NCBI RefSeq assembly: GCF_900313065.1 | Contig: NZ_OMPU01000005.1 | Span: 10,224-74,223, forward strand | Source: Kiloniella sp. EL199 | Lineage (GTDB): Bacteria > Pseudomonadota > Alphaproteobacteria > Kiloniellales > Kiloniellaceae | Length of the DNA stretch: 64,000 nt | Direction: 5' to 3' | In this document: positions 2,905-38,061 of the stretch, in pieces | How positions within the stretch are numbered: position 1 is the stretch's first letter | Layout: every line of letters starts with the position of its first letter | Notes under the pieces: generated by a model | The model's database searches: none | Seen by the model: only the letters and a program-made list of their open reading frames with translations | Told to the model about the DNA's origin: nothing | Made by a program: the position numbers and the translations under genes

Positions 2905-3790
2905 TTATGAAAATATTGTGGGCCAGGCTCTTTATGCCAGTAACCAAAAGGGCATAAAGAAGTTTCTACCTTTAGATTATCGTTTGGCCATTAAAAAGGG
3001 CACTTTAATTTCCAGAACATACAAACAGTATTTTGATAGAAAAAAAGCCTTAAAAGCTTCTTCTCCCAGTCAAACTATTCCTGATTGCGGCGTGACTGCC
3101 TTAAAGGGTGAGAAACTACCCTACTGGGAAGAGCTTGTTGATTATTGGTCAGGCTGGACTGAAAAAGAAATTAATAAAAAGAAGAACTCCACGGGTAAAT
3201 ATCGTAGACACTTGGCTGAGGCAAAAGAGTTATTAGCACATGAAAATACCCGCAACTTTGCCCTTAGTGATGAACTTTTAAAGATTGTTGGAAAGTATTT
3301 GGGGACTGCAGCAAGCTTTTCTAATGCTGGATTATGGTGGGGTAAAAAACAAGAAAGGTATGCAGGGAGCCCTGGGTTTCATTTAGATTCTTTGGATACA
3401 TCTTGTGTAAGAATTTACGTTTATCTCAGCACCGTGGAGAAGGAAAACGGCCCTCTCTGCGTGATTCCCCAAGAAGAGTCAAAGAAGTTTGTTAAGCAGA
3501 CGGGCTACTTAGGGAATACGATACCCGATAATGATGTTTATCAGGTGATTTCTGAGGATAAGCTTGAAGTTCTTACGGGGGCTCGTGGCAGTGTTTTTGC
3601 TGCTGATACTACAAAGTGTCTTCATTATGGAAGTAGGTGTACAGGCGGAGATAGAATTGCGCTTATTTTCACCTATGCTAGTTATCATAATTTTGATGAT
3701 AACAGTAAAGTACTACGAGAAATCTCTTTACCCGAAAGACCCAGTAACTTGCAAAAGTTAGCCTTGAAACACTTTTCATATCCATCTTGA
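2894..3790 (+). CDS. Phytanoyl-CoA dioxygenase (PhyH)-like Fe(II)/2-oxoglutarate oxygenase
   Basis: 298 residues with the complete facial triad of the family: His163-x-Asp165 (GFHLDS), distal His244 (KCLHYG) and the 2-oxoglutarate-binding Arg254 (GGDRIAL). Such enzymes hydroxylate or otherwise oxidise small molecules; inside a glycan locus the likely target is a sugar or an acyl or amino-acid decoration. A second PhyH-type enzyme lies at 15487-16278. The 3' end overlaps the convergent glycosyltransferase gene by 15 bases, leaving no room for a terminator between the two operons. Confidence 0.8.
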   Translation: MVTNYENIVGQALYASNQKGIKKFLPLDYRLAIKKGTLISRTYKQYFDRKKALKASSPSQTIPDCGVTALKGEKLPYWEELVDYWSGWTEKEINKKKNSTGKYRRHLAEAKELLAHENTRNFALSDELLKIVGKYLGTAASFSNAGLWWGKKQERYAGSPGFHLDSLDTSCVRIYVYLSTVEKENGPLCVIPQEESKKFVKQTGYLGNTIPDNDVYQVISEDKLEVLTGARGSVFAADTTKCLHYGSRCTGGDRIALIFTYASYHNFDDNSKVLREISLPERPSNLQKLALKHFSYPS

Positions 3791-4879
3791 ATTTGGGTGT
3801 TTTAAGGACTTTAAAAAATGGGAATAGGCGTATTCCAAGGTGAATTCCTTTGGAATACTGTTTAACTGGGCTAGGTTTTTTTCCTTTGGCTGAATTGCAT
3901 TAACTTTAGTTATGAAATCGTCGCCAAAAGAGGCGATTTGGAGTTGGTTTTGATCTTCGAGTAGATCTTTAATATCCTGGACACCGCCAGATTCCTTTGT
4001 CGCAATGCAGGGAGTCCCGCAGCAAAGAGCTTCTAAAAGTGCATTTGGCATACCTTCCCAGCGGGAAGGCATAAGGAAGCAATCTGCTAACCTATAATAT
4101 GTCCAAGGATTGTCGGTATTCTTTAAGAAATGAACCCGATTGTTTTCTGAAAGTTCGTCAACACGAGATTTGAGGCTTGTCTCTTCTGGTCCATCGCCAA
4201 TGAAGAGAAAAGATATATCCTTTTTAATTAAGGGGATGATTTCTATAAAACGGTCAAATCCTTTTTGCTCAACAAAGCGACCAGAGAGAACAGCCAGAAT
4301 TTTTGATGATTTAATAAAATTATTTGATTTAAATGAGTACTCGCGAATCTTACGATCATCCACTGGATTGTAAAACAAAGTCAGAGAGTCTTTTGGAGTG
4401 TTCAACCGATCCTCAAACTCTTTTTTCATTCGTTTTGATGTCACAAAAACTTTATCGGCCCGTTTGTATAGAAGATTGTATAGGAAACGCTTCAGCCAAG
4501 GGTATTTCGAATTATCAATAAGCACTGAGAGGAGATTAGCTTCTCGTACAATCACTTTAGAAGAGAAAAAGTGCGACATAAAAAGAATGGCTAAGTTAAC
4601 ATAGCCTAAAGTTGATAAGACATAATCGCCTTCCAACTTTTTGATCGTCATAAGTAGAGGCAATAGTGCATATAATAAACGCGGCTTCTTTAACCGGATT
4701 ATTTTTATATTTTCATTAAGATCCCGAATTTCATTATCATCTTCCTGAATTACGACGAGTGTAACTTTTATACTATCTTCTGCTAACCTATTCATAAGAT
4801 TAACAGCCACTCTTTGTGCACCCCCGATTTTTAGGTTAGGTAAAATGACGATAAATTTTAATGTAGTTGCTTTTCTCAA
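3776..4879 (-). CDS. GT4-family glycosyltransferase
   Basis: 367 residues. The N-terminal GT-B domain opens with LPNLKIGGAQRVA. The donor domain carries the GT4 signature EGMPNALLE with Glu275 and Glu283, then GTPCIATKESGG. It is the last gene of the long minus-strand train. The start is a TTG only 6 bases after the upstream stop; there is no ATG before residue 28, which would remove the first beta-strand. Translation is therefore probably coupled to the preceding glycosyltransferase gene. Its 3' end overlaps the convergent PhyH gene. Confidence 0.87.
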   Translation of the reverse strand: MRKATTLKFIVILPNLKIGGAQRVAVNLMNRLAEDSIKVTLVVIQEDDNEIRDLNENIKIIRLKKPRLLYALLPLLMTIKKLEGDYVLSTLGYVNLAILFMSHFFSSKVIVREANLLSVLIDNSKYPWLKRFLYNLLYKRADKVFVTSKRMKKEFEDRLNTPKDSLTLFYNPVDDRKIREYSFKSNNFIKSSKILAVLSGRFVEQKGFDRFIEIIPLIKKDISFLFIGDGPEETSLKSRVDELSENNRVHFLKNTDNPWTYYRLADCFLMPSRWEGMPNALLEALCCGTPCIATKESGGVQDIKDLLEDQNQLQIASFGDDFITKVNAIQPKEKNLAQLNSIPKEFTLEYAYSHFLKSLKHPNSRWI

Positions 4880-4885
4880 TGAATT

Positions 4886-6022
4886 CTATTTTGCTAATTT
4901 ATTGTATATATTAGATATTTGTGAGATATGACTATCTAATGCGTAGTACTTTTGGGTGTGATTCTGGGCCTGTAAGATAATTTGTTCTTTAAGGGTGGCT
5001 TGTGTTTCTAGTTGGATGATTTTGGATGTAAAATCTTCAATGTTATCGACCTCGCAGAGTAAACCGGTCTCTGAGTCTTTTACTATTTCTTTATGACCAC
5101 CAGCATTGGCTGCAACAACAGGTAACCCTATCATCATTGCTTCTATTAAGGTCCGCCCAAATGCTTCTACGGCGCAAGGTGCGATCAGATAATTTGATTC
5201 TCTAAAAAGGGCTTCAACTTCAGAAGTAAAACCAAAGAAGTGTACGTTACTTGATACACCTAAGCTTGATGCGAGTTCTTTTAAATCCGGGGTAAGATGC
5301 TCTTGGTCAGGGCCGACAATAAAACCATGTATCGGTCTATCAATTTTCTTAGACAAAGAATGCACAATCTTAATAAATAAATCTGGCTTTTTATAAGAGA
5401 CCAGCCGCCCAATAAATGTAAGAACTATGGCCGATTTAGGGATATTTAGTTGTGATCTTAACGAGGTATTTTTTTTCTTTTTGGTAGGAGTGCGAACTTC
5501 AATCGGATTATGAATCGTTTGAATTTTTGTTCCTTTTCCACGCCTTATAGAAGTTTCAACGGCTCTGGATATAGAGATAATTTTATCGGATAAAAATGGA
5601 ACAGCATGCCAAAATGGAGAGTGGGATTTGGGAAGGGCTCTTTGGTGCCAGATAAACTTGTTCGGCATACAAAGACGGCTCAACGACCATGTCAAATTAA
5701 CCCGGATGTCATTGCCATGAATTATGTTTATGTTTGAGCTTTTTAAGTACTTTCTGATAGGTTTTGCTGACCTAGCTGCATCGGCCAGAATTTTTAGCGG
5801 AGACGGGGTGGTTCCAGCATAATGAGGAATAGGTAAGAGAGTGTATTCATACCCCTCCCTATCAAGAAAATCTGATAGAGGTCCTTCTTCGTGTACGACG
5901 ATAAAAGGTTTAAACTTTGTTGTGTCTAAATGCCTTATGAGGGTCAATGTAGAAATGTGACTACCGCCAACAGAATCCCCAATAAATGGAAATGCTATGT
6001 TGGTTACCATATTCTGACTCAT
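4886..6022 (-). CDS. GT4-family glycosyltransferase
   Basis: 378 residues with a GT-B fold. The N-terminal half contains VGGSHISTLTLIRHL and IHGNDIRVNLTWSL. The donor half has IVLTFIGRLVSYKKPDLF and the E-x7-E signature as EAFGRTLIE (Glu286 and Glu294), followed by GLPVVAANAGGHKEIV. It sits in tandem with the next GT4 gene, 6 bases apart, suggesting two consecutive sugar additions. AAGAG lies just upstream of the ATG. The sugar specificity cannot be predicted. Confidence 0.88.
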   Translation of the reverse strand: MSQNMVTNIAFPFIGDSVGGSHISTLTLIRHLDTTKFKPFIVVHEEGPLSDFLDREGYEYTLLPIPHYAGTTPSPLKILADAARSAKPIRKYLKSSNINIIHGNDIRVNLTWSLSRLCMPNKFIWHQRALPKSHSPFWHAVPFLSDKIISISRAVETSIRRGKGTKIQTIHNPIEVRTPTKKKKNTSLRSQLNIPKSAIVLTFIGRLVSYKKPDLFIKIVHSLSKKIDRPIHGFIVGPDQEHLTPDLKELASSLGVSSNVHFFGFTSEVEALFRESNYLIAPCAVEAFGRTLIEAMMIGLPVVAANAGGHKEIVKDSETGLLCEVDNIEDFTSKIIQLETQATLKEQIILQAQNHTQKYYALDSHISQISNIYNKLAK

Positions 6023-6049
6023 AGGCTCTTAGAACTGCATTTCAACACA

Positions 6050-6751
6050 TCAGCGTTTGGCAACAAAAAGATGTCGAGGAACTGGAGAGACACTGGTCGG
6101 GAATTCTCCTAAGTAATCTATTTCGGTGAACCCAATACCCTTTAAATGCTCTTCAATCCATGTCCGGCTGTCAGGAGCCATAAATTCTAATTCCTTTGCC
6201 CAGTTTTTGGACTCTTCCTCTGGTTGCCCTGTGTCAAAAACAAGTGCTTTTTTGGTACGTTTTGCCAAGGAGAACAGCATTTTTTCTGCCTGCTCTTGGC
6301 CATAAAACCTTACCCAGTGGTGAAAGATGGATAAGCAAACAGTCACATCTGTTTGAGGGAAATTTTCAATACTTTCAGCATCGAGAGTAAGTTCTGAAAA
6401 AGCGACGTTGTTGATACGGTTTATGGCAGCTTTTGCCTTTGCAGCCATGATCTCTGATCTATCATTATCAATGCCAATGCAATAACCTCCCTTTTCTGCA
6501 AGCCGGAAGGTGAAATAGCCTTGATTACATCCCAGATCTAGAGAGGAGGGCGTTTCAAGGCCTTCTAATGAACGCTTTATAGCCTCGTATCTGTCATGAC
6601 AGGCCCTTAGATCTTTAGCGCGATCGTCTTTGAAAGGGTTTGGTTGGTATTCATGGGTTAATTTCAGACAGGATTGGATACAGAGACGAACTCTTAAAAG
6701 AAGAAGGCTAGAATGGAACAGAAAATAGTTCGCAATATCTTTAAATTTCAT
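6050..6751 (-). CDS. Class I SAM-dependent methyltransferase
   Basis: About 233 residues. SAM motif I is LDLGCNQGYFTFRLAEKG near residue 71, followed by an acidic GIDND motif II; the rest is a compact Rossmann-like domain. An upstream TTG at 6766 is in frame, but the ATG at 6751 has AAGG at suitable distance (CCAAGGTTTCTTATG), so it is taken as the start. It lies between the P-loop kinase and the two GT4 genes. It probably methylates a glycan or its precursor. Confidence 0.75.
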   Translation of the reverse strand: MKFKDIANYFLFHSSLLLLRVRLCIQSCLKLTHEYQPNPFKDDRAKDLRACHDRYEAIKRSLEGLETPSSLDLGCNQGYFTFRLAEKGGYCIGIDNDRSEIMAAKAKAAINRINNVAFSELTLDAESIENFPQTDVTVCLSIFHHWVRFYGQEQAEKMLFSLAKRTKKALVFDTGQPEEESKNWAKELEFMAPDSRTWIEEHLKGIGFTEIDYLGEFPTSVSPVPRHLFVAKR

Positions 6752-6849
6752 AAGAAACCTTGGCAATAAGAGAGAATTCTTCGAATGTATATATTGATAG
6801 GGAGTTGTAAGGCAATGTTTAGTTACGCTTTAAGCTGGGAGATTCTAAA

Positions 6850-7503
6850 CTAAATACGCAAAAAATCGATCAGTTTTGTTTTGATTGGGTCACTTATTTC
6901 TACATTCAAGTTCAGTGAATGGATTTGAACATTTCTATTGAGTAAATACTCATGGATTATCTGCTGGATTTCATAGGCTTTCACATAGCTCTCTGATGAA
7001 ACTGAATAGTCAGATCTTCTGTCAGTTTTTTTTTGCCGCTCTAAATAACGTTCCAGCGCAGTCTCTATATCTACCGTTACAATCACAACTTTATCGGGAA
7101 GGGGGATTAAGTGTAATAGCGCTTTAAGGAGCGAAAGGTCTAACTTGGTACCGCCATATTCTGCTGGAAATGATAATAACGGTTGTAGGATACCAGAATC
7201 TCTTAACACAGCATTTTCTTTTGCGGGCCTGGAATTTAGACTAGCTAATCTGTAGGCGACTTTTGAAATTATCCACCAACTGTTTTTAAAGCTTTTAGGC
7301 TTGAGGAATAGGGATGGATAATAAACCAAGAACCCAAGGTAAAGCCTTGTTAAGGATGAGAAAAAGTACAGCTTTTGGGGCGCTTCAGGCCAGCGTTCAG
7401 CAATACCGGAACATTCTACTTGGTTTTCAATTGAATTTATTAAGGTACTTTTACCTACGCCGGGTAAGCCGATGATTTCTGTGTACGGTAAATTTGTTTT
7501 CAT
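6850..7503 (-). CDS. P-loop nucleotide-binding protein, kinase-like
   Basis: 217 residues beginning almost directly with a Walker A motif (EIIGLPGVGKSTLINSI). A later basic helix (ALERYLERQKKTDRRSDY) resembles the lid of nucleoside- or thymidylate-kinase-like enzymes, and a DxE pair follows VVIVTV. The fold points to phosphoryl transfer to a small molecule or carbohydrate; no family can be named with confidence. It is 21 bases after the asparagine-synthase-like gene and about 98 bases before the methyltransferase, one of the larger gaps in the train. Confidence 0.55.
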   Translation of the reverse strand: MKTNLPYTEIIGLPGVGKSTLINSIENQVECSGIAERWPEAPQKLYFFSSLTRLYLGFLVYYPSLFLKPKSFKNSWWIISKVAYRLASLNSRPAKENAVLRDSGILQPLLSFPAEYGGTKLDLSLLKALLHLIPLPDKVVIVTVDIETALERYLERQKKTDRRSDYSVSSESYVKAYEIQQIIHEYLLNRNVQIHSLNLNVEISDPIKTKLIDFLRI

Positions 7504-7524
7504 TTACTGAGTATTCCCCGCCCC

Positions 7525-9210
7525 TTAATTTTTGGGTGAGCCATCCCAATTCAAGTTATGGGATTTCAGATATAGAGAAGTTAACCAAGAGATGGCATTC
7601 CTATGAGGACGTGAAGTAGAGGCTACATCCCACCATGAGACTGCTGCATATTTTCTAAGGGAGTCCATTGAGTGGGCGAAAAATCTGTTCTCAAATCTGT
7701 GCCAGGCAGGTTTGCCAAAGGGAGAGCAGAATGCTTTACCAAGAAAGCGTAAAGGTCTGATATAACTAGGTGTGACCCAGGTTGGTGCTGGAAGTAAGCT
7801 GTTCCAAACGCCTCCCCAATTAGCTTCGATCATACTATTTTTGTATAGATTCTGATTTACTTTATATTCCAGAGGGACGCTCTCCCAGAATTCAATGAAT
7901 TCACTATCCCATAAAGGAAGGCGCCAACCAAAACCGTAATGTTCATATCCCCTTTGATTTCCAAGGACATATTTGGCTTGTCTGTTTACGAACTCGTAAT
8001 ATTCATAAAGAGAATAGGCATTTTCCTTGGTTAAGTCTGGGGCGTTAGCCTCAATTAGTTCTGCATTTATCTGCTTGATAAAATCCTGTTTTTCCAACTT
8101 TTCAAATAAACTGGGCCATAATCCAAAATGTTTAGAAAAAATCGAAGAAAATAGCTGGTTTTTGGCTTCTTGTGTGGACCCAAGGTCAGAGGGCGTTTGT
8201 AGCGCTTTAGGGATGTGGTTCCCACTAATAAAGTCGCCAGTTTGTCCGTTGACCACGATGCCATTTCGGGCCCAATCGCAATCTTTCATCATATGCAGAG
8301 TTACGACATCCTGCTCGACAGGTGTTGAGATAAGACTGTCAGATTTTTTCAGATATTCTTGGTAACTCTTAGTGTTTCGGATTTGACGAAAATTAGCTGT
8401 GGTCGTTGGTAAAAAATGCCAATTATACCCTAGCTTATCGGCAATTTTCTTGGCTGTATATGATTCATGGTTGCCTTTTCTGCCGTAAGAAAAGCATTCG
8501 AGATTACTAAAGCCCAGCTCTTTGAAGCCGGATATAATTACTCTGGAATCCATTCCCGCGCTAAGAGGTACAAGAATTTTTCTGCCTTTAGCACTATCAA
8601 TGGTTTTTTGCAGAACTTTGAGTGTTTGGGAAAGTAGAGTGTGCTTGTAGTCTTGGATTTCGCCTCTATTTTGCTCTCCTTTCCATGGAGAAAATTGGTG
8701 ATATTTAAATCGTAGGACCTCTTCTTTTGGAGAGATCGTTATATACTCACCCGGCAAAAATCCAGTGATGTTCTGGTATAAAGTTTTAGTGCCAATACAA
8801 AATCCGCTTACGGCAATTTCCAGTGCTGCGTTTTTGCTGATGTCATCGGAAGCTAGTTTCAGATGTTTCAGTATTGGGGCAGCGTGATCAGAGATTACCC
8901 ACTTATCTTCATCAGATTTTGCATAGAGTAGAGGAATACTTCGTACTCGATCTACTGAAGCAACAGTAAGATCTTTTCTTTGATAGATTAAGGCAAAGTG
9001 CCCATCTAATTGGTCTATAATTTTTGCTAAATTACTTTGCTCAGATATCTGGTCAAAGTGGTCCATTAATTGGGCTAGAAAATTTTTGCTTTTGTAGGCA
9101 GTATTATGTAAATGGCCTTTAAAAAACAATTGGCTAGAGTTGTTATCATGATGGGACCAGCCAAAACTTTCTGCTAAATAAATTGATGTATAGCCCATGA
9201 TATTAGGCAT
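7525..9210 (-). CDS. Asparagine-synthase-like protein without the glutaminase cysteine
   Basis: 561 residues. The C-terminal half is a PP-loop ATP-pyrophosphatase domain like that of asparagine synthetase, with a variant loop LSAGMDSR at about residues 217-224 in place of SGGxDS. The N-terminal ~180 residues resemble a class-II glutamine amidotransferase fold (DGHFALIYQRKDLTVASVDR), but the protein begins MPNIMGYTS, so the nucleophile Cys2 is absent. It should still adenylate a carboxylate but must use free ammonia or another amine, as beta-lactam-synthetase-type relatives do. Downstream of the PIG-L deacetylase. Confidence 0.75.
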   Translation of the reverse strand: MPNIMGYTSIYLAESFGWSHHDNNSSQLFFKGHLHNTAYKSKNFLAQLMDHFDQISEQSNLAKIIDQLDGHFALIYQRKDLTVASVDRVRSIPLLYAKSDEDKWVISDHAAPILKHLKLASDDISKNAALEIAVSGFCIGTKTLYQNITGFLPGEYITISPKEEVLRFKYHQFSPWKGEQNRGEIQDYKHTLLSQTLKVLQKTIDSAKGRKILVPLSAGMDSRVIISGFKELGFSNLECFSYGRKGNHESYTAKKIADKLGYNWHFLPTTTANFRQIRNTKSYQEYLKKSDSLISTPVEQDVVTLHMMKDCDWARNGIVVNGQTGDFISGNHIPKALQTPSDLGSTQEAKNQLFSSIFSKHFGLWPSLFEKLEKQDFIKQINAELIEANAPDLTKENAYSLYEYYEFVNRQAKYVLGNQRGYEHYGFGWRLPLWDSEFIEFWESVPLEYKVNQNLYKNSMIEANWGGVWNSLLPAPTWVTPSYIRPLRFLGKAFCSPFGKPAWHRFENRFFAHSMDSLRKYAAVSWWDVASTSRPHRNAISWLTSLYLKSHNLNWDGSPKN

Positions 9211-9245
9211 GTTTCTCGCAGTCTGACTATAGGTTTATGGTGAAG

Positions 9246-9932
9246 TTAAAAGGTCGTGCGAACTAGCTGAAATGCTTCAGCTAAAGGAACGCCAACATCG
9301 GTTCCACGCAAGACATTTCTGGCTTCGATGGCATTGTAAGATCTTGAATGGGGGAAGGGGCGCATCTCTAGATCATATGCCTTTAGAGCAGCCAATTTTT
9401 TATCTTTCTGTTTCGATATATCTACAAAAAAATTGGGTTGGAATTGAGTAGATGGACTTTGTTGAGACCAGTTTGTTGCTGAAGGAACTTCCATTGATAA
9501 TATGGTTTTAACGGCGTGGCCAGGCTGGGGCCTACAGGCCGTCATAACAGACCGATAAGTTATCTGGTGATCTATATTCAAGTCGGACTGGTGGTGGGTA
9601 ATAATTAGTTCTGGCTGGTGTTTTGAGATAAGTTTCTCAATGTGTTGTGCAATGGAAAGCAAAGGAACACTGTCCATTGAATTATCAGGGAAAGAAGCAA
9701 AATTTATAGACTGAGTACCAACGATTTTATTTGATTCTCGCGCCATTTCTTCGCGATCATTTTTCAATTTTTCGACGACAGTGCCTCTAGCTCCAACTCC
9801 GTCAGTCATAAAACAAACATGGACTTCCGTTCCTTGTTTACTTAAACGCGCCATCGTCCCGCCGCAACCGAGGATTTCATCATCAGCATGCGCAACGATG
9901 ACACAAGCTGTTTTGATTCCTGTAAAGGTCAT
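9246..9932 (-). CDS. PIG-L/LmbE family N-deacetylase
   Basis: 228 residues with both zinc-binding motifs of the family: AHADDE (His15, Asp17, Asp18) at the N-terminus and HHQSDLNIDH in the middle. Members hydrolyse the N-acetyl group of GlcNAc-type substrates, so it probably exposes an amino group on a sugar. It has a strong ribosome site (AAGGAAACC before ATG) and begins 7 bases after the acetyltransferase gene. An acetyltransferase beside a deacetylase suggests exchange of an N-acyl group. Confidence 0.85.
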   Translation of the reverse strand: MTFTGIKTACVIVAHADDEILGCGGTMARLSKQGTEVHVCFMTDGVGARGTVVEKLKNDREEMARESNKIVGTQSINFASFPDNSMDSVPLLSIAQHIEKLISKHQPELIITHHQSDLNIDHQITYRSVMTACRPQPGHAVKTILSMEVPSATNWSQQSPSTQFQPNFFVDISKQKDKKLAALKAYDLEMRPFPHSRSYNAIEARNVLRGTDVGVPLAEAFQLVRTTF

Positions 9933-9939
9933 GGTTTCC

Positions 9940-10401
9940 TTATCCGTAAGTTTTGAGGGTTGAAAAGTCAGCGTCTTCCTTGTCTAGAATAAAATCCAGT
10001 TTCCGGAAAAGCGAGAGAGAAGCTGTATTTGTTGTCTTAACTACCGCTACAAAGATCAGAGCTGAAGGAGCGTGGAGTTTCCGGAGCCTTTGCATGCCAG
10101 CAGTCAAGGCTTTGAATGCCAGATCGCGTCCTCGGAATACCTGTTCAATATAAATATCAATGACAAAGGATGCACTCTGTTGGCCTTGTTCCTGAAAACG
10201 CATTTGACCGACAGGTTGATCCTGATCCAGAATCATGAAGAGGTGTATATTGTCTGTCCCAAGAACGGACTCTAACCAGCGTTTGTGATCTGATTCGAGA
10301 ATGGTTTGAACCGTCAGCTTCTTGTTTGAGAGGCTCTCCGGGCTGTTAACCCATTCCAGAAGTTTTTCCCAGTCATCAAATACAGCTTCCCGGATTTCCA
10401 T
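9940..10401 (-). CDS. GNAT-family N-acetyltransferase
   Basis: 153 residues with the GNAT core: a mid-protein strand (SFVIDIYIEQVFRGRDLAFK), the acetyl-CoA pyrophosphate-binding turn near FRGRDLAFKAL, and a C-terminal NTASLSLFRKLDF segment typical of family ends. It is translationally coupled to the large fusion gene upstream (stop and start overlap as TGATG). It shares that gene's higher GC, so the two may have arrived together. The likely role is acylation of the amino sugar made by the fused aminotransferase. Confidence 0.75.
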   Translation of the reverse strand: MEIREAVFDDWEKLLEWVNSPESLSNKKLTVQTILESDHKRWLESVLGTDNIHLFMILDQDQPVGQMRFQEQGQQSASFVIDIYIEQVFRGRDLAFKALTAGMQRLRKLHAPSALIFVAVVKTTNTASLSLFRKLDFILDKEDADFSTLKTYG

Positions 10402-13441: not shown

Positions 13442-13443
13442 GG

Positions 13444-28603: not shown

Positions 28604-28655
28604 AAAGTAAGTACCACCTTTATAATTATCAATTAACATGCAACTCTTTTACTAA

Positions 28656-29600: not shown

Positions 29601-29676
29601 TGATTATTCTTAGTTAGGGCTGAAACTCTTAAGTGCAAATCTATAGGCCAATAGTTTAGGATTTAGGGGTGATATT

Positions 29677-30447
29677 TTAATCATTACCTAAACAAAATTT
29701 TATTTGACGCTTGTTTATTTCGCCTAGAGGTTTCTCTTTCAATTCTAATAAATGAACGTCTCCTTTTTCATTGTAGGTGTATTGCCACGGGCGTTTGAGG
29801 AAGTCTTTTAAGAATCTGGCATTGGTTGTCCGTCCGTCAATTACAATCAGTGTGCCTGGCAGAAGAAGGTATTCAATACTAATCAAATCGGATGATAGGA
29901 CAACTCTGTCATTATGCCTGAAGGATATGCCGTTTTTCTCCCCTTCAACGTCAAAAGGGTGTGGGGCATCTAGATAAACGAAATCAGGGCAGATGTTTGG
30001 TAATTTGTTGTAGCGATGACATATACGCCCTTGGTGTGTGGTTATTTCTACGTTGCTTTGGTGGTAAGTAATTATGCCTCTTAGGTGCTGAGGAATACGA
30101 TTTTTGCTAATCTCTATCCAATGTTGAGATACTTCTATACAATGAAGCTCGAATAAGTTGTTCCTTCTTAGATCCAATTTTAGGATGTCATCTTTAAAAT
30201 CAATGCTGTTTTTATACAGTGCATCTGCTAGAACAAGGTTTGAGTAGCCAACACCAAATTCCATAATCGTTGTAACTTTTCTGCTCCTGACTAGTTTGTG
30301 TAGTCTGGCAAGGTCATCAAGTTGTGGTGGATATGGTGTTGTATTTTCTGGTTTAGCCCGTTCATTTTGTGTTGAATGACTATCTACGATCTCAATCAAA
30401 TAAGGTAATAACTCTTCATTGGCTAGGTATTCTGCGGCTTCTTCCAT
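29677..30447 (-). CDS. Putative SAM-dependent methyltransferase-fold protein
   Basis: 256 residues. MEFGVGYSNLVLADAL at about residues 60-75 resembles SAM motif I. ELHCIEVSQHWIEISKNRI resembles the acidic second strand, and FVYLDAPHPFDVEGEK the DAP-type post-motif. Later, GTLIVIDGRTTNARFLKDFL matches the class-I fold's strand 5 region. No specific family can be named. It has the best ribosome site in the train (AGGAGAA, 7 bases before ATG). A 76-base gap without a gene follows it; I see no terminator there. Confidence 0.55.
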   Translation of the reverse strand: MEEAAEYLANEELLPYLIEIVDSHSTQNERAKPENTTPYPPQLDDLARLHKLVRSRKVTTIMEFGVGYSNLVLADALYKNSIDFKDDILKLDLRRNNLFELHCIEVSQHWIEISKNRIPQHLRGIITYHQSNVEITTHQGRICHRYNKLPNICPDFVYLDAPHPFDVEGEKNGISFRHNDRVVLSSDLISIEYLLLPGTLIVIDGRTTNARFLKDFLKRPWQYTYNEKGDVHLLELKEKPLGEINKRQIKFCLGND

Positions 30448-30464
30448 ACAGCAATTCTCCTATG

Positions 30465-31337
30465 TTATTTTTTTGCGATTGCAACTAAGGTATCAGTCGC
30501 GTCTATCATTTGTAGAGAGGCTTCATAAGCACTCTTTAATTGATCGTTATCTATACTGCTTAGGATATTTTTATGCCCACCAGGTCTTTTTTTACTCAAC
30601 CAAGTAAGATGATTTGATAAAGGATACCTCTGCTTTCCCTGTATTGTTATGTTATGGAAACCTGTAGATGTAAGAAATTTAAATAGCGATTCCCTTGTGT
30701 GAAGTATTAAATGTTGGCTCCAGAGAGTGAAATTTTTAAAATCATTGCAATTTAGTTGTTGTAATAAGAAATCTTTTGCATGGGGAACCTCAATTATTAT
30801 GGTTCCCCCTTCTTTCAGTATACGAAAAGACTCAGCTAACATCTTTAACGGCTCGAGAAAGTGTTCCAGAGAATGAAAGGCAAAAATTGTATCTATTGAA
30901 GAGCTCTTAACTGATACTAAATCATTAAAACAGTTGATTTTGTTCTTTCTTAAATGATCTAAGCATCGTTCTTCTAGTTCAATGCCGATACAACCTTTAA
31001 AGGAGTTGTAATTAGACAGTAAAAAGTCACCTGCACCGCAACCTAGGTCAAGTACAGTTTTTCCTTTGTAAAACTGTTTATAATCTTGAGTTCTACGATC
31101 TAAATCGGTTGATCTTTCTAAATCAGGTTGCCCCGTGGTTTCTGTTTTGATTTCCCGATATTCTCCAAGTTCATAAGTTTCTTCACCTGTATAAAAATCC
31201 TCAATAAATATGATGCCACTCATTCGGTCCTTGTAAACTTTGAGATTTGGGACGTCTCTAGTGCAGTCTGCATAAACTTCACAGGTTTCATCTTGTACTA
31301 AGTTTAATGATTGGAGAGTTTTTTTTATATTGCTCAT
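30465..31337 (-). CDS. SAM-dependent methyltransferase (Methyltransf_23-like)
   Basis: 290 residues. Motif I KTVLDLGCGAGDFLLSNY and motif II GIELEERCLDHLRKN are canonical, as is the FAFHSLEHFLEPLKMLAE block. The first ~95 residues contain a segment with IFIEDFYTGEETYEL like that of glycan-locus C-methyltransferases. There is no cysteine cluster. It starts 3 bases after the CMP-transferase gene ends, so it may methylate the same nonulosonate or a neighbouring sugar. Confidence 0.8.
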   Translation of the reverse strand: MSNIKKTLQSLNLVQDETCEVYADCTRDVPNLKVYKDRMSGIIFIEDFYTGEETYELGEYREIKTETTGQPDLERSTDLDRRTQDYKQFYKGKTVLDLGCGAGDFLLSNYNSFKGCIGIELEERCLDHLRKNKINCFNDLVSVKSSSIDTIFAFHSLEHFLEPLKMLAESFRILKEGGTIIIEVPHAKDFLLQQLNCNDFKNFTLWSQHLILHTRESLFKFLTSTGFHNITIQGKQRYPLSNHLTWLSKKRPGGHKNILSSIDNDQLKSAYEASLQMIDATDTLVAIAKK

Positions 31338-31340
31338 GAT

Positions 31341-32057
31341 TTATTTATCTAAGTTTTTATTAAGGTAAAAATTCGTCAGTTCAAGATCTAACTCAGTGTC
31401 AATACTAATGAAATTCCCAGGTGTAATAAGAGCGCCTGGATTATTGCCTTTTATAGATGCTTCTTCCATAAGTGTTTCTCTTCTAATGGCATAAGCGAGA
31501 CCATTCCGGTGATATACTGGCGAAAGCTGTTGCCGGGCGATAATCAGCGCACCTGTTTGATCATAATATTCGAACGATTTGGTATTGGTGTCTATGGATA
31601 GCTGCTTTAACGGATGAGATTTACTATCTGTTTCGGATAGTGTCCAAACAGCAGAATAATCATTTTCCGCCAGCATCTTTATACAATCTGCCACGTGCTG
31701 TATTTTTCTAAGTGGAGAAGTTGGTTGAAGCATGACTATGATGTCATATTGAGTTTGGTCAAACTCCTCAGTGGTAAGAAGGGCATGTTGGAGAACTTCT
31801 AAATCTCCAACTCTATCACCGGATAGCTTTTCTGGGCGTCTAAAAAAATTGTCCGCACCGTATGAGTTTGCAACAAGTGCAATCTCCTCATTATCAGTCG
31901 AAACAACTGTACGGTCAATTTCGTTAACTGAGGTAGATATATTTGCCGCCAAACCAACCAGTGGGACGCCCCCAACTTTACTTAAATTTTTCAGGGGTAT
32001 ACCTTTGCTCCCCCCTCGGGCTGGTATGACGGATAGAACTGATAGATTATTTATCAT
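31341..32057 (-). CDS. pseF: CMP-nonulosonic acid synthetase (PseF/NeuA type)
   Basis: 238 residues, an acylneuraminate cytidylyltransferase. The N-terminal CTP loop is SVIPARGGSKGIPLKNL, with VVSTDNEEIA and the MLQPTSPLRK motif, all diagnostic. It transfers CMP from CTP to a nonulosonic acid. It is named PseF because pseB, C, G and H are in the same transcript. It also sits directly behind the cupin-fused synthase and HAD phosphatase and could serve that product. It overlaps the HAD gene by 11 bases. Confidence 0.85.
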   Translation of the reverse strand: MINNLSVLSVIPARGGSKGIPLKNLSKVGGVPLVGLAANISTSVNEIDRTVVSTDNEEIALVANSYGADNFFRRPEKLSGDRVGDLEVLQHALLTTEEFDQTQYDIIVMLQPTSPLRKIQHVADCIKMLAENDYSAVWTLSETDSKSHPLKQLSIDTNTKSFEYYDQTGALIIARQQLSPVYHRNGLAYAIRRETLMEEASIKGNNPGALITPGNFISIDTELDLELTNFYLNKNLDK

Positions 32058-32742
32058 AGCAAAGTTGATTTGACTTTAAGAAGCATGAGTAGTCTGAAAT
32101 TTTATTTGGCACTTCTTGATTGAAATCGTTGTACTCATTCTTGAGAGCGACAAAAAAAATCTCATGATGAAGCGCAGCTTTTCGATCACTTTCACCGTCA
32201 CCAAATAGAATGAGTCTTTCAGGTGGAATTTTGTGGCTATGCATTAGCTGTAGAATATTTACTTCTTTCGTTTTTGGAGTGCCCAAAACTTCAGTAAAGT
32301 AATGTGACATTCCAAGTTTATTTATAAGACTTTGAAGGGCATTCTGAGGTGTTAGGGAGCAAAGAAAAACCTTCTTATTATGTTTTTGAAGCTCGCTTAG
32401 AAAACATTTAGCGCCATTTACTTCGGCAGCCGTCAAAATTTTTTCCTGACATATTGCTGCGTAAGTTTCTATTAGCAATTGTTTGTATTCGGGGGCTTTG
32501 AGTGTTTCTGTTAATTTTGCAAACACTTCTACTCTAGTCCCCCCCTTATTGGGTTGTGATAGGATTTCGTTTATTAAAGAGATAGAATCGGGATGGTTTT
32601 TACTAAAATTTGTTCTTTCAATAGTAAGTAAGAAGCCATCCCTTTTGATGTTATTCGATTGTACTATTGTGCCGTCAAAGTCAAAAATTACGCCAAGGCA
32701 GCTTTTGAGTTCATTGAATATTTCGGAAGAGATTTTATCCAT
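32047..32742 (-). CDS. HAD-family phosphatase
   Basis: 231 residues. The DxD nucleophile motif is Asp21/Asp23 in GVIFDFDGTIVQ. The motif-II serine or threonine lies near LCSLTPQNALQ, and motif IV is FGDGESDRKAALH. The helical cap after the first motif places it with phosphoglycolate-phosphatase/beta-phosphoglucomutase-like enzymes. It lies between a NeuB-type synthase and a CMP-transferase, overlapping both, which suggests it removes a 9-phosphate from the synthase product as in the Neu5Ac-9-P and KDN-9-P routes. Confidence 0.78.
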   Translation of the reverse strand: MDKISSEIFNELKSCLGVIFDFDGTIVQSNNIKRDGFLLTIERTNFSKNHPDSISLINEILSQPNKGGTRVEVFAKLTETLKAPEYKQLLIETYAAICQEKILTAAEVNGAKCFLSELQKHNKKVFLCSLTPQNALQSLINKLGMSHYFTEVLGTPKTKEVNILQLMHSHKIPPERLILFGDGESDRKAALHHEIFFVALKNEYNDFNQEVPNKISDYSCFLKSNQLCYDK

Positions 32743-34264
32743 CTGTAAGCTGGAAACGTCCCCAATGATCTACGATTGTTTTGCGTTCTTCGCGTTTCTT
32801 TTCATTAATCTTAGGGTCTTTATATATCGAATCATTATTAAAATGAGTAGTCGATACTTCTTCAAAAATCACACCCGTTTCGGTCCAGAAGCGATGCCAT
32901 ACACCAGGTAGTACGAGTGCAGTGTCTCCGGGGAGTAACTTTTGTACTCTTCCGTCGATTTCTGAATACATTTCGCCCCAAAGAACCTGAAATGTTTCTT
33001 CTTTCCTTTTGTGGAAATGAAATGGATGGCTTTGGTTGGGGAGCTGGACAAGGACTTTTTTGCAATACTCGCGGTTAATACAGTTGATAATAACCACGCC
33101 TGTTTTGGTGAAGTTCTCAATACCGTTGTGGTGAGAATATTCAACTTCAAACTCCGGCCCTAAAACAATATTAGCCTTATTAAGCATGGCTTTGACCTCG
33201 TAAATTGCTTTCTTGAGAGCCATTGCTTTTGGAGGTTGTGGGGCTTCAACATCACTCTGTGTAATTATTTCGTTAACCTTTAGGGCCCGCTTTAATTTTA
33301 TACCTGGTTTAAATAAGCCGCTATCAAGCTGCTCACCTTCACAAGGCATAGCAAAGAAAACATCCTCTGCTGATAGCACGGTGTCCTTTTTAAGTTGTCT
33401 CTTAGCAAATACGCCACGTTTTAAACCCTTAAGTGCATCAGCTTCTATAGGAGAAGCGGGTTTACGGGAATAACTTCCTGACATTAATATGCTTCGTTTG
33501 TAAGCAGAAATCCAATTATCAAGCTGATCTTCCCTTGAGGAATAAGCATTTAGCTTGATGTTATCAGTTTCGTGACCTATGTGTCGCTCAAACATTCTGG
33601 CCCCGTAGGCATAAGATACCTGAATAGGTGTGCAATCATCAGGATCTTCATGTGTCGACCAACCTATAATCCGTTTGGGGTAGCGTTGTCTTAGCATCGC
33701 TATGTTTGCCAAGTTCATTTCATCAAGCGGTGTGGGGTAAATTGATACGCAATGCATAATTGCGTAGTCGGCACATTTGTGATCGAAAAAGCTAACAAGT
33801 TCATCAATCTGTATAAGCTCTTGACCTCCTGTTGAGAAAATTACAGGAATGCCTTTGGATGCGACTTTCTCTATAAGTGGCCAGTCTGCCGCAGAACAAC
33901 TAGCAATTTTAATAATATCAAAACCCATTTCAGCAATTGCATCTACAGATGCTTCATCAAATGGAGTGCACATGCTCAATAAGTTATGTTTCCTCACTTC
34001 ATCAAGAAGCTCTTGATATTGTGGAAGGCTAAGTTCGGTGGATAAAAAACGTGGGATATGTTTGTTGTCACTAGCATCTTTATGTGATGGGTGAATAAAA
34101 GTTTTTAACTGTCTAAATTGAAATTTTATAGCAGCCTTAACTCCATGCTTTTTGACAACCTTTGCGGCATTTCGGATGACTGTTTTGCCGTGTTCTACTG
34201 ATCCCTGATGATTGTTAGCAAGGTCTAGAACGAAAAGGTCGGAGAAGTCGAATGTCTTTTCCAT
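32735..34264 (-). CDS. NeuB-family synthase with SAF domain and C-terminal cupin
   Basis: 509 residues, about 160 longer than ordinary NeuB. Residues 1-~265 form the TIM-barrel synthase (VLDLANNHQGSVEHGK; metal histidines His205 in STHEDPDD and His228 in FERHIG). Residues ~285-355 form an SAF domain (RGVFAKRQLKKDTVLSAEDV). Residues ~365-509 form a cupin with HPFHFHKRKEETF (His416, His418) and LPGVWHRF (His457). The cupin resembles sugar-isomerase-type cupins and may act on the same sugar. The EDPDDC loop and the 23-residue His spacing differ from PseI, so the substrate may be unusual. Confidence 0.85.
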   Translation of the reverse strand: MEKTFDFSDLFVLDLANNHQGSVEHGKTVIRNAAKVVKKHGVKAAIKFQFRQLKTFIHPSHKDASDNKHIPRFLSTELSLPQYQELLDEVRKHNLLSMCTPFDEASVDAIAEMGFDIIKIASCSAADWPLIEKVASKGIPVIFSTGGQELIQIDELVSFFDHKCADYAIMHCVSIYPTPLDEMNLANIAMLRQRYPKRIIGWSTHEDPDDCTPIQVSYAYGARMFERHIGHETDNIKLNAYSSREDQLDNWISAYKRSILMSGSYSRKPASPIEADALKGLKRGVFAKRQLKKDTVLSAEDVFFAMPCEGEQLDSGLFKPGIKLKRALKVNEIITQSDVEAPQPPKAMALKKAIYEVKAMLNKANIVLGPEFEVEYSHHNGIENFTKTGVVIINCINREYCKKVLVQLPNQSHPFHFHKRKEETFQVLWGEMYSEIDGRVQKLLPGDTALVLPGVWHRFWTETGVIFEEVSTTHFNNDSIYKDPKINEKKREERKTIVDHWGRFQLTDG

Positions 34265-34286
34265 GGTATAAATCGATATCCTTTGC

Positions 34287-35390
34287 TTAAGCCTGAGTTA
34301 ATGCTTCTGAATCAAAGCCAGATGAATAATTAATATTTACAACGTTCTTTGTGAAATGGCTTTTGTAAGCGGCGCTAATTACCATCATTGTTTCCAAACC
34401 TCGTTGGCCGGAAATTATTTGGGGGTTTGCACTTTTATTATTTAGAACTCTTTTTATGTGTGATAACTCCGCAATGAAATCATCTGGACGTGTTTTTGAA
34501 AAATGAAAAGCTTCAGTATTTTTGTCGTCTAGTTCTAAGTAGACAGTATCAGTACCAGGTTTGGAGCCACAAACCCACTCTATTGCACCCAGTGTTCCTT
34601 GAATTCTGGCCCATTTTCTGGTGGGTTTTGTTACTACGTCTTGTATAACTCGACCTTTAAAATCTCTTTCAGTCGTAAGATTGATTGCGGCTATTTTGTC
34701 ATATGCTAGTGTATCTTTTTCTATCATATCCATGGTAGCGGAAACCTCTGATACCTTACCTTTACAAAGTAAGTGAGCAAAATGCTGCCATAAATTGAGT
34801 GCGTGGCTGTGTTCCCCACACGCTCCGCCTCCTCGCTCCCAATAACCCAGATAGCTATCTTGAGGACCAGCAAGCCATGGATGTGCGTTGAAAATGCCCC
34901 CCCAATGTTCACGAAACTCAACATCCAATGTTTCAACGTTACCAATGATATTTTGTGCAATTAATTCGGCCACTTTTCTGGTGGCTAACCCAACAACGTG
35001 ATCGTAACCAACGAACAAAGAAACTCCTAATTTTTCAGCTTTTGAGCTGAGTGTTTGAGCGTCTTTTAAGGAAGGAGTGCAGAAAGGCTTTTCAACAAGG
35101 ATTGCTTTTGGGAGTTCCTCTAGGGCTGACAACGCCAGGCTATTGTGGTGATCGGGAGGGGTTCCGATGAATATAATATCAAAATTACCTTTTGGAGCAT
35201 CATCATTTAGGTGAAGTTTAATATCGTCATCCCACAGCCCGTATCTTGATGGGTAAATCTCTTCTTTTGTGCGTCTAAGTGCCTCGGGGTCAACATCGCA
35301 AATTGTCACGTCCCACCCCAATGACCGAGAAGCATTGGCTAGGTGATTGCCAATGGAGCCGGCTCCAAATATTTTTACTTTATAAGACAT
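34287..35390 (-). CDS. Gfo/Idh/MocA-family oxidoreductase
   Basis: 367 residues. The N-terminal NAD(P)-binding domain is KIFGAGSIGNHLANAS, with the family EKP motif in AILVEKPFCTP. The C-terminal alpha/beta substrate domain includes GGGACGEHSHALNLW with the usual catalytic-region histidine. These enzymes oxidise or reduce sugar hydroxyls or keto groups. It immediately precedes the cupin-fused synthase gene (22 bases) and probably prepares its hexose substrate. Confidence 0.83.
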   Translation of the reverse strand: MSYKVKIFGAGSIGNHLANASRSLGWDVTICDVDPEALRRTKEEIYPSRYGLWDDDIKLHLNDDAPKGNFDIIFIGTPPDHHNSLALSALEELPKAILVEKPFCTPSLKDAQTLSSKAEKLGVSLFVGYDHVVGLATRKVAELIAQNIIGNVETLDVEFREHWGGIFNAHPWLAGPQDSYLGYWERGGGACGEHSHALNLWQHFAHLLCKGKVSEVSATMDMIEKDTLAYDKIAAINLTTERDFKGRVIQDVVTKPTRKWARIQGTLGAIEWVCGSKPGTDTVYLELDDKNTEAFHFSKTRPDDFIAELSHIKRVLNNKSANPQIISGQRGLETMMVISAAYKSHFTKNVVNINYSSGFDSEALTQA

Positions 35391-35454
35391 GAATGTACTT
35401 TTACCTCTTCTTTTTTTTGGGGCGGCGGAGTGTATAGGAATCGTAAGGCAGTTG

Positions 35455-36831
35455 TTAGATTGTCAATTCGCTTAAGGTTTCAATTAGCCGATCTGTCGCG
35501 CAACCATCTGCAGCATAGGTGTACTTATTGAAAACATGAAAGCGGTTTGCCGAAACTGATTTTGTAAGTTTGTAATCATTGTTCATTGCATTTAAAATTT
35601 GTTGTTTAAACTCCAATTTCGAAGCTGCTATTTGATAAGTAGACGATTCATCTTTGAATGAGATACATTTCTCCCATTTAGGATCTTTTGCTTCTGCGAA
35701 AATAGGGATAATGACAGTTGGGCATAGGAGGCCTGCTTCGAGAAGTGTTGTTGAGTTAAAGCCGGCTACGATCCTACTTTTCGTTATCAAGTCATGAACA
35801 TTATGTTCAGCGTCAATCAATAAATTTTTAGGAGTATTTTGTTGTTTTACATTCACTATTTTTCGAATATTTTCTGTCCAGCGCCCTCCCCATTTAGGTT
35901 TGATGATAAAGGTCCAATCCGGATTTTCAGCCGCAAGCTCATAAATTGCTTTATGTGTCTCCTTACAGAAGTTGTATAGGTAATCTTTCGGGTTTTTAGG
36001 CCAGTGAGGAGGGCTGCTTTCAAGTATGCCAGTCATGGGGCCGAAAGAAAAAAGGGTGATAACCTTTGATCGGATATCGTAAGAGTTGTTTCTATGGGTG
36101 TGAACATAGTCATCCATGCGAGGGATCCCTGTTACATAACCCTGAGAATGAGAGATGTATCCTGTTTGCACAAATAAATCTCTTTGAATGTGGTTATGGA
36201 AGAGAATATGCGTTCCATGAAATTGGTTGTATTTTCTTAACCTTTCTACAAAAAAGTTCTGCATATAGAGTGAGGAAACATTGCTCTCACGCTGCATTAT
36301 AATAGCGGGTATTCCGATTTTTTTTGCTATGGCTAGGAATTCATAATCTTGTCTGTAATGAATTGCGGCGGCTATGACAGCTCTTATTTGATATTTTTTT
36401 TGTAGTTTAAGGAGTAAGATTCGAACTATCTTTTTGTATTTATGTTTGTTTCTCTTTGTCTTGTGGTCCTCAATTTGGGAGGTGAGTGGATTGTATTCGT
36501 TTTTTAGTATGTCATAGAAGTGAGCATATAAAAAGCATTGCCACTTAAACGACATCCTTGTTATCGAGAACTTTTTTGAGGAAACAAGTATTTCTAATTC
36601 ACCTCTGAAGCGATTTGGATTAAGGGCCAATAAATTTATTTTGTCTCTACTTCCCCCTTTGGTAATGCTGGAAAGAATAAGTGAGTAGAAGCAGGTGTTC
36701 GCTATTACCCAAGCTGGTAAAGGTGAAATTGATTTGTATATAATTGATTTAATTACAGGCACTGGGGTGATATGTTTGAAAATATTTAGGGCCACGCTAC
36801 CGCACTTTGGGTGAAACACTTTTTCACCCAT
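35455..36831 (-). CDS. Putative surface-carbohydrate transferase with GT-B-like C-terminus, family not recognised
   Basis: 458 residues. The N-terminal ~150 residues are basic and unrecognised. From ~165 the protein resembles capsule/surface-carbohydrate biosynthesis proteins: IPAIIMQRESNVSSLYMQ, a GIPRMDDYV strand, TFIIKPKWGGRWTENI, and the nucleotide-site segment GFNSTTLLEAGLLCPTVIIP, comparable to the one in the 613-residue protein at 20292. It is the first non-regulatory gene of the train, 32 bases after the NusG-like gene. It is predicted to be a cytoplasmic glycosyl- or phosphoglycosyl-transferase. Confidence 0.5.
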   Translation of the reverse strand: MGEKVFHPKCGSVALNIFKHITPVPVIKSIIYKSISPLPAWVIANTCFYSLILSSITKGGSRDKINLLALNPNRFRGELEILVSSKKFSITRMSFKWQCFLYAHFYDILKNEYNPLTSQIEDHKTKRNKHKYKKIVRILLLKLQKKYQIRAVIAAAIHYRQDYEFLAIAKKIGIPAIIMQRESNVSSLYMQNFFVERLRKYNQFHGTHILFHNHIQRDLFVQTGYISHSQGYVTGIPRMDDYVHTHRNNSYDIRSKVITLFSFGPMTGILESSPPHWPKNPKDYLYNFCKETHKAIYELAAENPDWTFIIKPKWGGRWTENIRKIVNVKQQNTPKNLLIDAEHNVHDLITKSRIVAGFNSTTLLEAGLLCPTVIIPIFAEAKDPKWEKCISFKDESSTYQIAASKLEFKQQILNAMNNDYKLTKSVSANRFHVFNKYTYAADGCATDRLIETLSELTI

Positions 36832-36863: not shown

Positions 36864-37355
36864 TTAAGTAACTGTCGTTACGCCAAATCTAGAAACAGAT
36901 GTATTTACTTCTCTTCCTAAGAGGTTGAGTAGTACTGAAATGCGCTCTCTGTCAATCATATGTGACAGGGAGCCGATGATATTTGCAAAAGGACCAGATA
37001 AAAACTTTACCTTTTGACCAGGTTTAAGGTCTGGGTCAGACAGTTCTTGGTCAATTTTTGCTTCGCGTAAGTTTGCCACAAAACCGTCAGGAAGGCTGGG
37101 CAGTTTGCTTCCCGCAGCGATAAGCCTTCTGACGCCGTAGGTGCTGTTTATAGAGCCCCAGTTGTCAGATGTGGGGTCCAGTTCGACAAAGATATATCCC
37201 GGGAAAAGGGCCTTTTTTACGATGTCGACCTTGCGAGCATGCTTCCTCGCTTTGAGAAAGTAAGGCAGATAAACTTGAAACCCTTGGCGGGTCAAATTTG
37301 CTTCAGCTCTTAGCTCTTGATTGGAGTGAGTATTAATTACATACCATTTTCGCAT
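36864..37355 (-). CDS. NusG-like transcription antitermination protein (RfaH/UpxY type)
   Basis: 163 residues, the length of RfaH. The NGN domain spans residues 1-~100 (WYVINTHSNQELRAE, FPGYIFVELDP, YGVRRLIAAG) and the KOW domain ~112-163 (LKPGQKVKFLSGPFANIIGS). Housekeeping NusG is longer and lies in the secE-rplK region, so this is a specialised paralogue. Such proteins bind RNA polymerase and prevent premature termination over long glycan operons. The gene is second in the train, coupled to the MarR-like gene through TAATG, so it probably drives its own transcript. Confidence 0.88.
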   Translation of the reverse strand: MRKWYVINTHSNQELRAEANLTRQGFQVYLPYFLKARKHARKVDIVKKALFPGYIFVELDPTSDNWGSINSTYGVRRLIAAGSKLPSLPDGFVANLREAKIDQELSDPDLKPGQKVKFLSGPFANIIGSLSHMIDRERISVLLNLLGREVNTSVSRFGVTTVT

Positions 37356-37987
37356 TATTCTGTTCCCGTTGAGTTATTGAGGGCTTCAGGCGAATGAATG
37401 CGAAGGAAATCTGGAACGATTAGCCGATCGTGGTCAAAGCACTGTACGGCGTTTTCATAGGTTTTTTGGGGGGCGTCTGAATCCGTGATTACAATGGCAT
37501 CAAAATCGGGAATATTACTCAAGGTTTTGATGACAGGTAAGTGGCCGACTTTTTCGCGGGATGTTTTCTCATCTACAACAGCAACAAGTTCAATTTGTGT
37601 ATCCCATGCTGCCATAATGGCGATTTCCGTTAACTCTCCGGCCCCAAGCAATGCTATTCTTTTTTGCCCATTGTTGGCTGCACGTTCGAAAATCTCTGAG
37701 TATTGATTTCGCGTGTTTTTGAAAAAGTATAAAGAGGTATCTAAATACTCAACAACCAACCGGCTTTTCTCGCTAAAGCCTCTTGGGGTTAGGTAGTAGG
37801 CATAGCGTTTATAGGGCGCAGATTTAGCTTTTACGTAGCCTTTGTGAATCGCTCTTTTTAGAAGAGCATTTGTAAGGCCTATGGATACACCAATGCGTTT
37901 TGAAAGCGTCATCTGTGAAATTACTTCACCCTCTTCTAAGGACTGAAGGAATTCAATGTCTGTTTTAATATCAGATTTTGACGGCAT
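37355..37987 (-). CDS. MarR/EPS-type winged-helix regulator fused to a Rossmann-like domain
   Basis: 210 residues. The N-terminal ~75 residues are a winged helix like the MarR_EPS family found beside exopolysaccharide NusG paralogues (ISQMTLSKRIGVSIGLTNAL, then YYLTPRGFSEKS). Residues ~108-200 form a nucleotide-binding-type domain beginning QKRIALLGAGELTEIA and ending IVITDSDAPQK...IVPDF, similar in shape to CoA-binding/PglD-N-like folds. This suggests sensing of a nucleotide, CoA or sugar-nucleotide ligand. A TTG at 38044 lies upstream of the promoter; ATG 37987 has AGGAA 5 bases before it. Confidence 0.75.
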   Translation of the reverse strand: MPSKSDIKTDIEFLQSLEEGEVISQMTLSKRIGVSIGLTNALLKRAIHKGYVKAKSAPYKRYAYYLTPRGFSEKSRLVVEYLDTSLYFFKNTRNQYSEIFERAANNGQKRIALLGAGELTEIAIMAAWDTQIELVAVVDEKTSREKVGHLPVIKTLSNIPDFDAIVITDSDAPQKTYENAVQCFDHDRLIVPDFLRIHSPEALNNSTGTE

Positions 37988-38012
37988 AGGTGTTCCTGTT
38001 GTTAGCGAGGGC

Positions 38013-38041
38013 ACTTTAGATAGATTTTTTCTAGAGGTCAA
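38013..38041 (-). promoter_or_regulatory. Sigma70-type promoter of the 32-gene glycan train
   Basis: On the minus strand: TTGACC (38036-38041), a 17-base spacer, and TAAAGT (38013-38018). This would start RNA near 38006, giving a leader of about 20 bases before the ATG at 37987. The spacing is ideal and both boxes match 4-5 of 6 consensus bases. Strength and start site are inferred. Confidence 0.65.
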
Positions 38042-38046
38042 CAATT

Positions 38047-38061
38047 ATTCACACTGTGAAT
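38047..38061. promoter_or_regulatory. 15-bp palindrome, candidate operator of the MarR/EPS-type regulator
   Basis: ATTCACACTGTGAAT, a perfect 7-1-7 inverted repeat, ends 5 bases upstream of the -35 box of the train promoter, within the divergent region shared with the epimerase gene. A site directly upstream of -35 suits an activator, or a repressor that blocks polymerase. The obvious candidate ligand is the adjacent winged-helix protein; binding is untested. Confidence 0.5.

Follow-up and report, generated by a model that had tools for sequence, protein, structure and literature searches.

In the cited sections of two studies, RfaH is described as being recruited at operon polarity suppressor (ops) sites (PMC7593976, PMC7819879), and the first of these states that the recruitment of specialised NusG factors encoded in their own operons is unknown, and that DNA contacts and autoinhibition arise together (PMC7593976). 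A 2026 preprint, in the part cited here, predicts that monomorphic, non-switching RfaHs encoded in cis act independently of ops (PMC13015549). Here we describe a locus in a 64,000 nt stretch of the genome of Kiloniella sp. EL199 (contig NZ_OMPU01000005.1, the whole stretch hereafter termed the window), in which a 34 kb train of minus-strand glycan genes is headed by a winged-helix regulator (gene 1) and an RfaH-like NusG paralogue (gene 2), followed by a hairpin and an ops-like 12-mer (together, the element). Judged by sequence, this linked element does not fit the split between ops use and non-autoinhibited factors. From the observed parts, their order, their conservation and their co-occurrence we infer that gene 2 would load at the element, and we consider it likely that a portable head cassette runs the operon in this way, in a feed-forward manner, with gene 2 loading past its own gene. 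The features are as follows, in window coordinates:

38047..38061, minus strand: palindrome ATTCACAGTGTGAAT, candidate operator of gene 1 (TTCAYnnnRTGAA), from its sequence and the upstream regions of homologues
38013..38041, minus strand: promoter-like TTGACC-17-TAAAGT, 9 of 12 consensus (1 site against 0.9 in shuffles, chance level by itself)
37355..37987, minus strand: gene 1, winged-helix and Rossmann regulator with a MarR_EPS-like N-terminal half, from TIGR04176 below its cut-off, a structural model and fold matches
36864..37355, minus strand: gene 2, RfaH-like NusG paralogue, from Pfam NusG, an RfaH model below its cut-off, alignment and a predicted beta C-terminal domain
36808..36830, minus strand: hairpin TGGGTGAAA-AAGTG-TTTCACCCA of 9 pairs, from folding and covariation
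36793..36804, minus strand: ops-like 12-mer TGCGGTAGCGTG, its first base 60 nt past the gene 2 stop and 3 bases after the hairpin
3776..36831, minus strand: 30 cargo genes (genes 3 to 32), a nonulosonic-acid glycan set; the coding sequence of gene 3 may begin later than 36831

The element and its distribution

The 12-mer TGCGGTAGCGTG equals the Escherichia coli ops 12-mer, which we take to be GGCGGTAGCGTG, at 11 of 12 letters. A search of 143 relatives with gene 2 (>55 bits) found RfaH-like genes to be patchy, with four of the nine genomes of the genus carrying one, and 30 of the 45 listed RfaH-like genes were fetched for locus inspection. CGGTAGC was present ≤320 nt downstream of the gene in 16 of these 30 loci, with TCACCC at the same offset in all 16; in two of the remaining 14 loci (L011 and L018) the sequence stops at most 40 nt from the gene. 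Whole genomes were searched with the strict pattern TCACCCNNNNKGCGGTAGC, in which TCACCC and GCGGTAGC are fixed, the independent support for both being the 30-locus inspection. The Kiloniella genome contains a single copy, after gene 2, and a second GCGGTAGCGTG (C8:263467) is without the TCACCC arm. Across the order, 20 of 61 genomes contained 24 matches in total, against none for the reversed control, and in an even draw of the class 46 matches occurred in 44 of 385 genomes (reversed control, four matches in four genomes). RfaH-like genes were detected overall in 22 of the 61 order genomes and 89 of the 385 class genomes (class threshold E at most 1e-12), and among element-bearing genomes in 20/20 of the order and 40/44 of the class, where 10.2 were expected.

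The element lies on the same strand and 47–243 nt downstream of an RfaH-like match (measured between TCACCC and the last position of the protein match) in 18 of 24 order copies and 24 of 46 class copies, and none of the 68 distinct copies (24 from the order and 46 from the class, two shared) is found immediately ahead of a same-strand RfaH-like gene. Three copies are 0.9–3 kb upstream on the opposite strand, in divergent orientation (G118, G333 and G035), whilst the remainder include copies 1.7 to 650 kb off on the same contig, 12 on contigs without a detected RfaH-like gene and four in genomes without one. Two genomes (G017 and G022) encode two RfaH-like genes each, every one with its own element copy. 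The element is, at the level of nucleotide patterns, conserved, and it tracks RfaH-like genes.

Covariation supports the hairpin: in 50 non-redundant copies, drawn from 52 with loci, the arms paired better with each other than with swapped arms in 40 and than with shuffled arms in 47, with a summed energy of −588 versus −508 (standard deviation 10.6) and 0 of 10,000 permutations as good. Position 11 of the ops-like sequence, which is not in the search pattern, is T in 40 of the 50 copies; six copies match E. coli at 12 of 12 positions, 11 are one base off and the rest two to four off. Scanning the window for ops with two mismatches allowed was uninformative (103 matches versus 97 expected), and Rfam JUMPstart found no match in 20 relative loci at E up to 1. 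Read on the plus strand, 36808–36830 gives the same hairpin followed by TTTTTGTTGT, resembling a terminator against antisense transcription.

The gene following the element has a Pfam match in 17 of 20 copies, in every case to a sugar, glycan-modification or transporter family; the copies were chosen by hand from the 52 (ten from loci lacking both gene 1 and gene 2, ten close to one of these genes), and for each the longest open reading frame (ORF) starting −60 to +700 nt was taken. In five cases (L038, L049, L056, L076 and L078) the element directly follows a gene-1 homologue and gene 2 is missing from the 3 kb locus, which suggests action in trans as well. None of seven plasmid stretches, five with a NusG-like gene (L107–L111) and two with a gene-1 homologue (L112–L113), has a strict element after its gene. 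In two of them, from Roseobacter-group plasmids, a hairpin with GCGGTAGC directly behind it lies on the strand opposite to the NusG-like gene (L108:2806 and L110:2809, both minus), and these sites precede pseB and a MarR_EPS gene. A further locus (L100, in G035) has two divergent gene-1 homologues, one with gene 2 and an asparagine-synthase-like gene behind it, the other with the element and PseB.

The head genes and their cargo

The initial annotation of gene 2 as a NusG/RfaH paralogue is borne out: it passes Pfam NusG (PF02357; 75.6 bits, gathering 22.2) and scores 117.7 bits to the NCBIfam RfaH equivalog TIGR01955, under its 144.5 cut-off, failing also UpxY NF033644 (62.9 against 100 bits) and LoaP NF033641 (43.3 against 125). 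A 2g-type alignment with E. coli RfaH spans residues 1–155. The genome (4.18 Mb, 99.9% complete) encodes two NusG-family proteins, NusG and gene 2, the latter its sole RfaH-like protein, and a search of the genome contigs with gene 2 as query returned one distant locus. PADLOC gave no match for genes 1 and 2. At position 48, where E. coli RfaH has E48, an autoinhibition residue alongside R138, 47 of 48 homologues have A, R, V, S, T or K (K in the window; the residue of the 48th was not displayed), whilst R138 and L142 are invariant across all 48. In the AlphaFold model the C-terminal domain, an alpha-helical hairpin in free E. coli RfaH, is predicted as beta strands only, at a predicted local distance difference test score (pLDDT) of 89.8. 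Gene 2 is thus predicted to be NusG-like in shape and is probably not autoinhibited as E. coli RfaH is. A stretch H39-A40-R41 and W66 are near-invariant in the homologues, and ops may perhaps be read by these other residues, or the element may be mainly a pause.

Gene 1 had been annotated as a MarR/EPS-type regulator, which holds in part: its N-terminal half resembles MarR_EPS below the cut-off (TIGR04176, 54.5 against 88 bits, in that half only), but it is not a plain MarR protein, having a Rossmann domain and a conserved promoter palindrome. The likely start is the ATG at 37987. An AlphaFold model comprises a winged helix, a long helix and a Rossmann domain (pLDDT 84, the winged helix weaker at 53–75); the top Foldseek rows are O-methyltransferases with a template modelling score of about 0.3, and at domain level the fold matches the Rex family, a WbaP domain and UDP-quinovosamine 4-dehydrogenase. 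A gene-1 homologue is present upstream of gene 2 in 24 of the 30 RfaH-like loci, and two of the six loci without one offer ≤108 nt of upstream sequence. The palindrome TTCAYnnnRTGAA (≤1 mismatch) occurs upstream of 38 of 43 non-redundant gene-1 homologues (59 regions before filtering), 25 of them perfect, compared with 2.3% in shuffles and 0 to 4 of 43 for six permuted palindromes. Genome-wide it is not enriched (three sites versus five for the control, one of them, 61048–61062, inside an ORF), and it is informative by position only. In the window it sits five bases ahead of the weak promoter-like site. Two Chelatococcus plasmids carry a gene-1 homologue (55–57%) just ahead of GDP-mannose/GDP-fucose genes; two perfect palindromes accompany it, and the stretches shown contain neither a NusG-family gene nor the element. 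The arms of the element, GGGTGA/TTCACCC (36808–36830), contain the palindrome half-sites TTCA/TGAA in inverted order, and gene 1 might touch both.

Thirty-two minus-strand ORFs follow in a row from 37987 to 3776, as first annotated, with intergenic gaps of −47 to +83 nt; the gap initially given as about 98 bases is the 83 nt gap with the first ATG taken as the start of gene 30, and the next largest are 76 and 64 nt. The annotation's view that the train holds no terminator also stands, as every terminator-like minus-strand match of the train falls inside coding sequence, the window scan found none between its genes, and totals on both strands are near the shuffled expectation (20001–39500, 21 versus a mean of 16.9; 1–20000, 21 versus 17.3). 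The cargo encodes PseB (496 versus a cut-off of 408) and recognisable, below-cut-off PseC, PseG, PseH, PseF and two NeuB-family synthases, a pseudaminate-type set, together with an ATP-binding cassette (ABC) transporter, glycosyltransferases and methyl-, acetyl- and amidotransferase-type proteins. Because the gene 3 ORF start at 36831 overlaps the element, the real start may be further in (later start codons are at 36795, 36762 and 36555). Gene 5 (32735–34264) is a NeuB-family synthase whose C-terminal end has SAF and cupin/lyxose-isomerase-like domains, and gene 25 (10401–12488) is a cytidylyltransferase fused to a class-III aminotransferase, with a G+C content of 0.51 versus about 0.40–0.45 in its neighbours.

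In two genus relatives (G001 and G002, 40 kb each) gene 1 (71%), gene 2 (66%) and the element are retained, and the glycan genes behind them are for the most part different ones. Of the 30 cargo proteins, 8 and 9, respectively, have matches there (E below 1e-10; 24–55% identity), at other positions, and four have matches in G007. The head thus seems to persist while the cargo changes.

Proposed feed-forward loading and its rivals

In the mechanism that we propose, gene 1 would bind the promoter palindrome and set initiation, a leader of about 1.1 kb would be transcribed and give gene 1 and gene 2, and polymerase would reach the hairpin and the ops-like pause. Gene 2, probably not autoinhibited, would board polymerase there and, by the known biology of RfaH, exclude NusG and Rho, after which the modified polymerase would traverse the remaining about 33 kb; in some genomes gene 2 may also serve other glycan operons bearing the element. 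With the element beginning 60 nt beyond its stop codon, gene 2 should act on the genes that follow its own, and because loading falls after gene 2 the arrangement would be feed-forward and not a loop. A broader version, which we put forward tentatively and slightly doubt, is a widespread, three-layer mobile switch, in which a sugar-nucleotide- or nucleotide-sensing gene 1 on its operator would gate initiation and a non-autoinhibited RfaH encoded in that leader, loading at a JUMPstart-type ops beyond its own gene, would gate elongation, as a feed-forward AND gate.

Several observations weigh against loading at the element. The E. coli ops-reading residues are mostly replaced in the 48 gene 2 homologues (K10 kept in 3, R73 in 6 and H20 in 15); Rfam JUMPstart (RF01707) scores 18.4 bits over a 201-base stretch, under its gathering value of 35, and Rfam returned nothing at gathering level over the window. 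The strict pattern is missing from 49 of the 89 RfaH-like-positive class genomes, 22 of 46 class copies do not adjoin an RfaH-like gene, the four copies in genomes without a detected RfaH-like gene match the four control hits in number, and the Fisher p-values for co-occurrence (4e-14 in the order, 6e-25 in the class) are optimistic because the genomes are related. Lastly, the Shine-Dalgarno sites of 30 genes of the operon were no different in strength from those of 24 others in the window (p 0.33 and 0.41), and weak ribosome sites were dropped as a mark of RfaH targets.

Alternatively, as has been suggested for monomorphic RfaHs, gene 2 might board in cis with no cue from the sequence, and the element would then be just a pause or leader structure. 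The predicted beta C-terminal domain, the absence of E48 and of most E. coli ops-contact residues, and the ops-independent activity of monomorphic homologues in the cited part of PMC13015549 favour this account, but both the ops core and the hairpin are kept across relatives and are found together with RfaH-like genes, even at copies far from the gene, and we consider it unlikely.

The initial annotation had drawn a positive, all-or-none loop, with gene 2 acting on its own transcript from the start and over the whole 34 kb. Gene 2 is promoter-proximal, and a non-autoinhibited factor might bind polymerase anywhere, so a loop could arise if an always-active gene 2 touched its own message. However, the only element in the genome comes after gene 2, and 0 of 68 copies are just upstream of an RfaH-like gene on the same strand, and on these grounds we reject the loop as drawn; as the effect of RfaH on polymerase begins at its loading site, this site should not let gene 2 boost its own transcription, and any such loop is quite improbable. 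What survives is an RfaH-type factor private to the operon, the one RfaH-like gene and the one strict element of the genome both being here, without the self-reinforcement. Least probable of all is that the element serves gene 1 and not gene 2, for although its arms GGGTGA/TTCACCC carry the operator half-sites GTGA/TTCA inverted and five copies directly follow a gene-1 homologue in 3 kb loci that lack gene 2, four of those five genomes have an RfaH-like gene elsewhere, the ops core is outside the palindrome, and on the two Chelatococcus plasmid stretches gene 1 and the palindromes occur with no element.

Comparison with described systems

An ops-type site that directly follows the gene of the factor, and that in some genomes also precedes other glycan genes, offers a concrete candidate for the recruitment site of such factors, and a DNA signature for locating their targets. 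If feed-forward loading is correct, ops recognition would be separable from autoinhibition; under the broader, more doubtful version, ops-directed recruitment would depend neither on autoinhibition nor on fold switching of RfaH, and might predate both. TTCAYnnnRTGAA is likewise a candidate operator for a glycan regulator for which a search under its NCBI name gave one paper. At the level of titles and abstracts, we found no report of ops after a cis-encoded RfaH gene.

Gene 1, as modelled, resembles the Rex-family redox repressors in combining a winged helix with a Rossmann domain (VIA Z 9.6–8.4, at domain level), but over both domains the root-mean-square deviation is about 17 Å, and its Rossmann part is equally like sugar-nucleotide proteins (2g6t, 8t53 WbaP and 3nkl). 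RfaH cluster CL4 (Wang et al. 2020), likened here by description, has an RfaH-like gene beside a helix-turn-helix regulator and envelope genes in the cited section (PMC7593976), which describes no loading site, whereas the window has a candidate one. UpxY of Bacteroides and LoaP are, in the same section, specialised NusG proteins at the head of, or adjoining, the glycan or antibiotic operon served (PMC7593976); here, their models score far under the cut-off, the partner is a winged-helix/Rossmann protein and not UpxZ, and an ops-type site is present. With E. coli RfaH/JUMPstart, as outlined in the cited parts of PMC2864571 and PMC7819879, the locus shares a NusG paralogue and a hairpin followed by a GGCGGTAGCGTG-type sequence ahead of long glycan operons, whilst it differs in having the site behind the gene of the factor itself, TCACCC in the hairpin arms, another residue in place of E48 and a predicted beta C-terminal domain. 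The sequence comparison suggests RfaH/JUMPstart control in a new arrangement, with an ops-type site, at which the factor would load, just past the factor's gene.

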